A stretch of 38,753 bases of DNA from Betaproteobacteria bacterium (GTDB lineage: Bacteria > Pseudomonadota > Gammaproteobacteria > Burkholderiales > SG8-39), in contig JANYII010000309.1 of the NCBI GenBank assembly GCA_025358705.1, positions 1 through 38,753 on the forward strand, written 5' to 3'. The position numbers and the translations under genes were made by a program. The notes under the pieces were generated by a model that did no database searches, was not told the origin of the DNA, and saw only the letters and a list, made by a program, of their open reading frames with translations. Positions 9,706 through 18,497 of the stretch are shown piece after piece (position 1 is the stretch's first letter; each line of letters opens with the position of its first letter).

Positions 9706-11105
<1,400 letters not shown>

Positions 11106-11109
<4 letters not shown>

Positions 11110-12173
11110 GTCAACGGCAGCAATAATGTGAATATCGTTCTTCCCGGGCGGCTGTCGAATTCGACGACACCGCCATGATTTTGTACGTAGGTCTGCACCA
11201 GCGCGAGGCCAATGCCGCTGCCGCCCTCCCGTCCGGAAACGAGCGGATTGAAGACGCGGTCGCGGATTTCCTCGGGCACGCCAGGCCCGTCGTCTATCAC
11301 TTGCAATTCCAATGCCAGCTTGTGGCGCTGCCGGGCAATTGTCACAAGGCGGGCCGAACGGGTGCGCAGGACGATGGTCCCGCCACGGCCGCTGTTCGCC
11401 CCGGAAAGGAGCGCCTGGGCGGCATTCCGGACCACGTTCAGGACGGCCTGGATAAGCTGCTCGATATCGCCGACGAGGTCCGGGACGCTTGGGTCGTAGT
11501 TGCGCAGTACGGAGATGCCTTCCGGAAATTCGGCCTGGACCAGGCTTCGGACGCGCTCCAGAACTTCGTGGATATTCACCGCCGCCAGCTGCACCGCACG
11601 CCGCGGCGTCAACAGGCGGTCAAGCAGCACCTGCAGCCGGTCAGCCTCCTTGATGATGACCTGGGTGTATTCCCGCAATTCGGGCCGGTCGAGCTCACGC
11701 TCGAGCAACTGCGCCGATCCGCGCAGCCCGCCGAGCGGGTTTTTGATCTCGTGCGCAAGATTGCGCAGCAGTTCCCGCGTGGTCTCCTGCTGGTCAAGCA
11801 GGCGCTCTTCCCGCTCCTGCCGCAACTGCTCCTGGATCGGCCGCAATTCCACCAGCAGGGGCGCATCCGGGATATCGATCGGTGCCACAAGGCAGGAGAG
11901 CGGCAATGGCTCGCGCCCCGCGCGCTCGTAGCTGGCGGCCTGCGCGCGGTAGCTCCAGTGCACGGCAAGAGCCTCTGCCAACATGCTTTCGAGCGTCGCG
12001 CTATCGGTAAAAAGGGCCGGAAATGGCTGGCCAACGAGCGACCTGGCGCCCGCGCCGAGCAGATTCTCGGCCGCCGAATTCGTGTAGCGCACCACGTAGC
12101 TGCCGTCCAGAATCACGACGGCGGTGGCGAGGAGCTCCAGGCCCTGAAGCCCATTGGGTTGTGCTTCGGCCAT
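11106..12173 (-). CDS. glnL: nitrogen regulation sensor histidine kinase NtrB
   Basis: PAS-like N-term; H-box NLAHEIKNPLGGLRGSAQLLERELD; VIDDGPGVPEEIRDRVFNPLVSGREGGSGIGLALVQTYVQNHGG; ATGA overlap with glnG. Confidence 0.96.
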
Positions 12174-12798: not shown

Positions 12799-14214
12799 CT
12801 AGGAGCTGTAGTACATGTCGAACTCCACCGGATGGGTGGTCATGCGGAAACGCGTCACTTCGTCCGATTTCAGCGCGATGTAGGACTCGAGGAAATCCTC
12901 GTCGAACACGCCGCCCTTGGTAAGGAAGGCATGATCCTTCTTCAGGTTCTCGAGCGCCTCGTCCAGCGATGAACAGACCTGCGGCACCTTGCCAGCCTCT
13001 TCGGGCGGCAGGTGATACAGGTCTTTGTCGATCGGGTCGCCAGGGTGGATCTTGTTCTGCACGCCGTCCAGACCCGCCATCAGCATCGCCGAGAACGCCA
13101 GATAGGCATTCGCGGTCGGATCTGGGAAGCGTACCTCGACGCGACGCGCCTTGGGGCTCGCCACGTAAGGAATGCGGCAGGAAGCGGAGCGATTTTTCGC
13201 AGAGTAAGCAAGATTGATCGGCGCCTCGAAGCCCGGCACCAGGCGCTTGTAGGAATTGGTGCCCGGGTTTGTGATTGCGTTCAGCGCCTTGGCATGCTTG
13301 ATGATGCCGCCGATGTAGAACAGCGCGAAATCCGACAGGCCGGCATAGAGATTGCCCGCGAACAGGTTGTTGCCGCCCTTCCACACCGACTGGTGCACGT
13401 GCATGCCTGAACCGTTGTCGCCCACGATCGGCTTGGGCATGAAGGTCGCGGTCTTGCCATACGAGGCGGCGACGTTCCAGACCGTGTACTTGAGGATCTG
13501 CAGCCAGTCGGCACGCTGCACCAGCGGCGCGAACTTTGTGCCGATCTCGCACTGGCCCGCTGCGGCAACTTCATGGTGATGCACTTCCACTTCCACGCCC
13601 TGCTGTTCGAGCGCGATGCACATCGCGTTGCGGATGTCCTGCAGCGTATCGGCCGGCGGCACGGGGAAATAACCGCCCTTCACCGGCGCGCGGTGCGCCA
13701 TGTTGCCCGACTCGTATTCGATCCCCGTGGACCAGGGCGCTTCCTCGGACTTGATCTTCACCGAAGCGCCTGACATGTCGATGTTCCAGGTGACGCCGTC
13801 GAAAATGAAGAACTCGGGTTCCGGGCCGAAGTAGGCCACGTCGCCGAGGCCGGACGACTTGAGGTAGGCCTCCGCGCGCTTCGCGATGCCGCGCGGGCAG
13901 CGGTTGTAGGGCTTGCCGTCCGTGGGCTCGACCACGTCGCAATTGATGTTGAGCACCGCTTCGTCCGTGAACGGATCCATGCGCGCGGTAACGGCATCCG
14001 GATACAGCAGCATGTCGGAAGCCTGGATGCCCTTCCAGCCGGCGATCGACGAGCCGTCGAATGCGTGCCCGTCGGTGAATTTTTCCTTGTTGAACTGCTT
14101 GGCAGGCACCGAAACGTGCTGTTCCTTGCCGCGCGTGTCGGTGAAGCGGATGTCGACGAACTTCACCTCCTTGTCCTTGATCATCTTCAATACGTCATCG
14201 GGCGTCATCGCCAT
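12799..14214 (-). CDS. glnA: glutamine synthetase type I
   Basis: [41 protein letters not shown]...[19 protein letters not shown]...[11 protein letters not shown]...[17 protein letters not shown]...NRSASCRIP; start placed at 14212-14214 (471 aa). Confidence 0.98.
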
Positions 14215-14279
14215 TGCATTTCTCCTAAGCGGGTAAAAGAAGGACGGGCTGGGCATACCGGCCCGGACTCGCCTAACTG

Positions 14280-14295
14280 AGCAGAATCCATGCCA
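14280..14295 (-). promoter_or_regulatory. sigma54 (-24/-12) promoter of glnA
   Basis: Minus strand TGGCATGGATTCTGCT vs consensus TGGCACG-N4-TTGCW: two mismatches outside N, GG/GC spacing preserved; about 65 bp upstream of the glnA ATG. Confidence 0.85.
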
Positions 14296-14357
14296 AACGA
14301 CCTCACCATGGCCAGCCCCTCCTCTGGCCAAGTTGGTGCGATTCTACCCGACGAAAT

Positions 14358-14374
14358 TGCGCCTATATGGTGCA
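14358..14374. promoter_or_regulatory. NtrC-binding site 1 (proximal to glnA)
   Basis: TGCGCC-TATAT-GGTGCA, matches TGCACY-N5-GGTGCA with one mismatch. Confidence 0.85.
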
Positions 14375-14388
14375 CAACCGAGTCGATT

Positions 14389-14405
14389 TGCACTTTTTTG
14401 GTGCG
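14389..14405. promoter_or_regulatory. NtrC-binding site 2 (distal to glnA)
   Basis: TGCACT-TTTTT-GGTGCG, one mismatch to TGCACY-N5-GGTGCA; centre-to-centre spacing from site 1 = 31 bp. Confidence 0.88.
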
Positions 14406-14433
14406 AATCGTTTCGGAACCTATAATTGACCCG

Positions 14434-14871
14434 ATGGACGACATAAAGACGAAAGCCCGGGAACGCGGCCAGAAACTGAAGCTCGCCTATGCGGGGGCGC
14501 TGCTCCCCGCGGAAGCGCATGCGCTGATGCTGGCGGGGGCGAAGCTGGTCGATGTTCGGACGGATGCTGAACTGCACTTCGTCGGATCGGTGCCCGGTGC
14601 CGAAGCCATCGAGTGGAATACCTATCCTGAAGGGCAGCGCAATCCGGCGTTCCTGGAACAGCTGGCGGAAGCCGCGCGCAAGGACGAGCCCGTGATGTTT
14701 CTGTGCCGCTCGGGCGTGCGCTCGCACCACGCCGCGATTGCGGCTACCGAGGCAGGCTGGACTGATGCCTACAACATTCTCGAAGGCTTTGAAGGCGACA
14801 AGGATGCGACAGGCCATCGCAACGTGGCCGGCGGCTGGCGCAAAACCGGCCTGCCCTGGGCGCAAAGTTAG
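14434..14871 (+). CDS. rhodanese-like domain protein
   Basis: KLVDVRTDAELHFVGSVPGAEAIEWNTYPEG...EPVMFLCRSGVRSHHAAIAATEAGWTDAYNILEGFEGD; Cys loop CRSGVRS. Start at ATG 14434. Confidence 0.9.
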   Translation: MDDIKTKARERGQKLKLAYAGALLPAEAHALMLAGAKLVDVRTDAELHFVGSVPGAEAIEWNTYPEGQRNPAFLEQLAEAARKDEPVMFLCRSGVRSHHAAIAATEAGWTDAYNILEGFEGDKDATGHRNVAGGWRKTGLPWAQS

Positions 14872-14878
14872 ATGTGGG

Positions 14879-14907
14879 AACAGGGGAGCCTGAGCTCCCC
14901 TGTTTTT
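14879..14907 (+). terminator. intrinsic terminator after the rhodanese gene (between convergent genes)
   Basis: aacaggggagc-ctga-gctcccctgtt, perfect 11-bp stem, followed by ttt. Confidence 0.9.
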
Positions 14908-15705: not shown

Positions 15706-18456
<2,751 letters not shown>

Positions 18457-18497
18457 GGGGCAAGATTCTGCGCCCCTTGACGATTTGGCATCGCAGC

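Follow-up and report, generated by a model that had tools for sequence, protein, structure and literature searches.

Genes and signals at the locus

The window analyzed here, a stretch of 38,753 nucleotides of betaproteobacterial DNA, carries the nitrogen genes glnA, ntrB and ntrC on its minus strand, and a gene encoding a rhodanese-domain protein that is divergent from glnA, from which it is separated by an intergenic region of 219 bp (Table 1). The window belongs to an assembly broken into 330 contigs, for which there is probably no cultured strain. The translation of ntrC contains both the phospho-acceptor context (LISDIRMPG) and the sigma54 loop (GAFTGA), and RpoN is encoded elsewhere in the same genome (PF04552). 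All the letters and coordinates given in an earlier, sequence-only reading of this region are present in the sequence. An Rfam scan of the glnA/rhodanese region produced no match.

Table 1. Genes and predicted regulatory elements around the glnA/rhodanese intergenic region (positions in the window)
Feature	Position	Strand	Remarks
ntrC (glnG), response regulator NR(I)	9706-11109	-	TIGR01818, 698.8 bits (cut-off 558.6)
ntrB (glnL), sensor kinase NR(II)	11106-12173	-	NF008293, 333.9 bits (cut-off 240)
glnA, type I glutamine synthetase	12799-14214	-	TIGR00653, 654.9 bits (cut-off 429); PF00120/PF03951
sigma54 promoter of glnA, TGGCATGGATTCTGCT	14280-14295	-	2 mismatches to TGGCACGNNNNTTGCW
TAGAAT, predicted sigma70-type -10 toward glnA, glnAp1-like	14346-14341	-	20 bp from proximal NtrC centre
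Proximal NtrC site, TGCGCCTATATGGTGCA	14358-14374	.	centre 14366, -97 from sigma54 start; 1 mismatch to consensus; order-wide conservation
Distal NtrC site, TGCACTTTTTTGGTGCG	14389-14405	.	centre 14397, -128 from sigma54 start; 1 mismatch to consensus; order-wide conservation
TTGGTG, putative rhodanese -35	14398-14403	+	within distal NtrC site; 3/6 match to TTGACA
TATAAT, predicted -10 of rhodanese promoter	14421-14426	+	invariant in 13 aligned relatives
Rhodanese-domain gene, 145 aa, motif CRSGVR	14434-14871	+	PF00581; solved relatives 8w14, 2fsx

The control region of glnA and its conservation

The predicted sigma54-dependent start of glnA is at position 14269, when the C of the -12 GC element is counted as -12. 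The sequence-only reading had put the NtrC sites at -96 and -127; their placement stands, and the figures become -97 and -128 when they are recomputed from this start. The centres of the two sites are 31 bp apart, which is about three helical turns. The region upstream of glnA has the features of an NtrC-activated sigma54 promoter, namely the -24 GG and -12 GC elements and the paired palindromes, with both NtrC and RpoN being encoded. A scan of the intergenic region revealed no sigma54 promoter directed toward the rhodanese gene. When TGCACYNNNNNRGTGCA was searched with at most one mismatch, the NtrC pair gave the only matches in the 38.8-kb window, and two of the six matches to the strict NtrC motif in the whole 3.0-Mb genome are this pair.

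To place the region in a comparative context, we gathered rhodanese orthologs and their flanking DNA from relatives as well as from a public genome collection. In the first set, 127 loci have glnA and the rhodanese gene in divergent orientation; in all there are 199 such loci, some of which are duplicated between the collections. Conservation was counted on the 175 non-identical divergent loci that carry a genus label. A sigma54 site with at most three mismatches is present at 172 of these, and the NtrC pair occupies its canonical place at 140. Thus, conservation across the betaproteobacterial order extends to the divergent genes, to the sigma54 promoter and to the two NtrC sites near -97 and -128, and profiles anchored on both NtrC sites yield strong, symmetric NtrC motifs. 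Because the sigma54 site and the NtrC pair recur across the related loci, we consider the glnA control region to be secure, and on this comparative evidence the layout exceeds chance. The glnA control region that had been proposed from the sequence alone is supported, and its conservation includes the window's genus and its sister genus. Loci of the Nitrosospira/Nitrosomonas type (L042-L051 and L062) mostly keep the divergent pair and lack the NtrC pair, except for L043, which has both sites and belongs to another lineage; nearly all of the others in this group (L042, L044-L051 and L062) are also without a recognizable sigma54 site.

A second putative promoter facing glnA

A sigma70-type -10 element, TAGAAT, is directed toward glnA from within the intergenic region and was absent from the sequence-only reading. 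The corresponding ATTYTA is found in 13 out of 13 aligned relatives. At 21 of 78 loci, TARAAT and the centre of the proximal NtrC site are exactly 20 bp apart, the per-offset maximum in shuffled sequences being 3, and this 20-bp offset is seen at 25 of the 57 loci of the window's family versus 4 of the 83 others. A -35 element spaced 17 bp from TAGAAT would fall within the proximal NtrC site. On these grounds TARAAT is probably part of a sigma70 promoter of glnA that overlaps the NtrC site. To go by the title of a study, the glnA gene of the betaproteobacterium Herbaspirillum seropedicae reportedly has two oppositely regulated promoters. The predicted TAGAAT promoter would fit such an arrangement, in which a second promoter is regulated oppositely to the sigma54 one; that study is not known to deal with a divergent gene.

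The rhodanese promoter

The rhodanese gene is preceded by a perfect TATAAT, followed by 7 nt and the ATG at 14434. That this element is the rhodanese -10, as the sequence-only reading had it, is supported by its invariance among the relatives, and it is the sole plus-strand match to TATAAT, allowing up to one mismatch, in the intergenic region. A perfect TATAAT was found downstream of distal NtrC sites 24 times versus 1.2 expected. Ten loci of the window's genus (g1) with an intact region were called by script, and in nine of these the TATAAT and the distal NtrC centre are 22-24 bp apart; in the tenth, L004, an insertion of 20 bp places the -10 at offset 44. The g1 loci with a close TATAAT have 4-10 nt between the -10 and the ATG, and several related genera have about 11-12 nt. 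The g1 spacing is also seen at the related locus L037 and, by eye, at L012, which belongs to a further species on a contig that ends early and whose distal site is degraded in its left half. Among the seven congeners with offset 24, TATAAT is 100% identical versus 48% for the 15-bp spacer, and we therefore consider TATAAT to be maintained by selection; the third codon positions of the rhodanese gene are 60% identical at the same seven loci, which is above the value for the spacer.

The loci L003, L037 and L082 contain no in-frame start upstream of the rhodanese ATG, which supports the ATG at 14434 as the start of the gene. The -10 element is so near to this ATG that there is no room for a Shine-Dalgarno sequence, and therefore a leaderless or almost leaderless mRNA is predicted, with a leader of at most about 2 nt. 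The pattern agrees with that of leaderless genes, as the -10 puts the transcription start on or beside the ATG and a Shine-Dalgarno sequence is absent. In Burkholderia cenocepacia, leaderless transcripts have been measured, with TAnAAT directly 5' of the start codons (PMC4603805), and the window resembles these genes in having TAnAAT near the start codon, no Shine-Dalgarno sequence and a weak -35; it should be noted that the leaderless starts are measured in that bacterium and predicted here (PMC4603805). The near-leaderless promoter, which had already been suspected from the sequence, gains support from its conservation in the genus and the sister genus. On the 3' side of the rhodanese stop codon, positions 14880-14907 form a strong hairpin with a T run (arms acaggggagc and gctcccctgt around ctga, then tttt), located between the rhodanese gene and the convergent uppP gene. 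This hairpin suggests that the rhodanese mRNA is monocistronic.

The -35 element is a different matter. TTGGTG had been proposed as the -35 of the rhodanese gene; it matches TTGACA at three of six positions and was not picked up by a standard promoter scan. The hexamers at the same place in congeners are TTGGTG, GTGGTG, GCGGTG, ATGGTG, CTGGTG, CGGGTG and TTAGTG, so that the conserved bases in the -35 region are only those common to the NtrC half-site, and neither the promoter scan nor the congener alignment revealed a rhodanese -35 independent of that half-site. TTGGTG thus stays a putative -35, with no support independent of the NtrC half-site. The wider proposal, that the distal NtrC site overlaps the rhodanese promoter, holds up, and the overlap is conserved both in the window's genus and in its sister. 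The distal centre is at about -36 relative to the predicted rhodanese start, and NtrC sites overlap core promoter elements on both sides, with the rhodanese -10 at 24 bp and the glnA-facing -10 at 20 bp from the respective site centre.

Position of the rhodanese promoter in other genera

The intergenic region is shorter in the sister genus (g5) and its relatives. At L189, L192 and L193, the distance between the rhodanese -10 and the distal NtrC centre is again 23-24 bp. At L011, L197, L194/L040 and L191, the rhodanese -10 itself is located within an NtrC-like palindrome (CGCACTCCTATAATGCG in L197 and TGCACCCCTATAATGCA in L194/L040), the match of the right half being partly due to TATAATGC, which is a common -10 context. 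At L011, L188, L190 and L197, this second NtrC-like site is present 30-31 bp from the proximal one; therefore, the spacing of the pair is kept and the promoter has shifted under the distal site. Taken over the sister-genus loci L011, L188, L190, L191, L194 and L197, an NtrC-like palindrome either contains or adjoins the rhodanese -10.

Direct overlap of the distal site with the -35 region was observed only in g1, x37, x38 and g147, plus the g5 type. In most of the other genera where a rhodanese -10 could be called, it is at least 30 bp, and usually 30-100 bp, from the distal centre. A fixed position of the rhodanese -10 was sought across the whole order and was found only in the window's genus and its close relatives.

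The offsets from the distal NtrC centre to the rhodanese -10 cluster near 22-24, 30-35 and 52-57. In the first set, these offsets were phased at 10.5 bp with R=0.66 (one value per genus) or R=0.59 (set-wise); in an independent second set, R was 0.37 (p ~0.05). Because the second set is weaker, much of the signal comes from a single cluster at 30-35 bp and the genera share ancestry, we treat helical phasing as a lead only, and dropped it as an established result. Of the two related loci L038 and L039, one carries an 11-bp duplication, about one helical turn in length, in the DNA that separates the rhodanese -10 from the distal NtrC site, so that their offsets are 35 and 24, respectively.

We also considered whether the rhodanese gene is an NtrC target independently of glnA. 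Among 48 rhodanese orthologs located away from glnA, four have an NtrC-like site upstream, where chance alone would give about 5% per locus; of these four, three are on truncated contigs from which glnA may have been cut off. This candidate was ruled out, as the orthologs elsewhere are at chance level. It follows that any control of the rhodanese gene by NtrC would be an effect of the adjoining glnA and not a conserved need.

A proposed role for the shared enhancer

We propose, with a probability of about 0.6, that the NtrC enhancer has a double role, in which it activates the sigma54 promoter of glnA and occludes two sigma70 promoters. From the sites at 14358-14374 and 14389-14405, bound NtrC would activate the sigma54 promoter by looping, and the same bound NtrC would cover the upstream portion of two outward-facing promoters of the sigma70 type, a glnAp1-like one toward glnA (-10 at 14346-14341) and the near-leaderless one of the rhodanese gene (-10 at 14421-14426). 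Since the distal site is centred near -36 with respect to the rhodanese start, NtrC and the sigma70 RNA polymerase should be mutually exclusive there, and bound NtrC would exclude this polymerase from both promoters. Under nitrogen limitation, glnA would then move to its sigma54 promoter and rhodanese transcription would be lowered. What we observe directly is which elements are present, how they are conserved and how they are spaced; that the rhodanese promoter is occluded, that it depends on nitrogen and that this serves the cell in any way is inferred. If the sites are already filled by unphosphorylated NtrC, the rhodanese gene might respond to nitrogen status only weakly. The main text of a paper on ntrC of Burkholderia cenocepacia names no rhodanese gene.

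The spacing and the distance of the NtrC sites are similar in the glnALG operon of E. coli. In that operon, which has the promoters glnAp1, glnAp2 and glnLp, two NtrC enhancer sites likewise drive the sigma54 promoter of glnA and NtrC represses the sigma70 promoter glnAp1 (PMC3870243), a repression exerted in vivo largely by the phosphorylated form of NtrC (PMC3870243). Unlike in E. coli, the distal site of the window also lies within a divergent rhodanese promoter. For the window, NtrC activation and the occlusion of the glnAp1-like promoter are supported by this precedent. A comparable effect has been reported for gdhA of Pseudomonas putida, where NtrC at a sigma70 promoter lowers transcription, as is predicted here, and where repression was reported to be independent of phosphorylation (cited in PMC5648810). 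The site at gdhA is a dedicated one, whereas in the window the activating enhancer would double as an operator. The best reading of the region is, in our opinion, a bidirectional variant of the known NtrC design of activation and occlusion, following the logic of glnAp1 in E. coli. A more far-reaching version, in which the NtrC pair is a bidirectional switch and the rhodanese -10 is held order-wide on one helix face relative to the distal site, with NtrC contacting the sigma70 polymerase and nitrogen starvation lowering the sulfurtransferase as glutamine synthetase rises, seems to us distinctly unlikely.

The overlap may also reflect neighbourhood only, in that a compact intergenic region brings the signals together, with each gene retaining its own and NtrC having at most a small physiological effect on the rhodanese gene. 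This would account for NtrC sites not following the rhodanese gene away from glnA, for the many genera in which the rhodanese -10 is far from the enhancer (40-100 bp), and for a -35 region that is unconserved beyond the NtrC half-site. However, nearly all congeners retain TATAAT at 22-24 bp although the spacer is near saturation, and the overlap is kept or even deepened in the sister genus, and we therefore see this explanation as possible, if on the unlikely side. A different view would be that NtrC assists the rhodanese promoter, acting at about -36 (about -46 in other genera) as a class-II-like activator for a perfect -10 with a poor -35. The pairing of a perfect -10 with a non-conserved -35 is consistent with this view, as is the hint of helical phasing, which faded in the new set. 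Yet the encoded NtrC is of the sigma54-dependent type, as its GAFTGA loop indicates, several distal sites in the sister genus extend over the -10 itself, a placement that activation would not allow, and the orthologs elsewhere do without NtrC sites, so that assistance by NtrC is improbable. Finally, a rhodanese start further upstream, for which the frame in the window is open back to an ATG at 14290, or another promoter that would deprive TATAAT of its role as the -10, is very improbable indeed in view of the three relatives closed to such a start and of the single, invariant plus-strand match.

If the enhancer does occlude the two sigma70 promoters as we propose, one common enhancer would tie a sulfur-transfer gene directly to the nitrogen status, and the region would be a clean natural case in which an activating enhancer is also the operator for divergent housekeeping promoters, with the sister genera showing the overlap shifting from the -35 to the -10. 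Since glnA and the rhodanese gene are paired in this way widely across the order, the proposal is testable in cultured laboratory species.

Elsewhere in the window, a TPP riboswitch (RF00059) is present on the minus strand at 18357-18461, just 5' of a minus-strand gene at 16506-18368 that looks like thiC.
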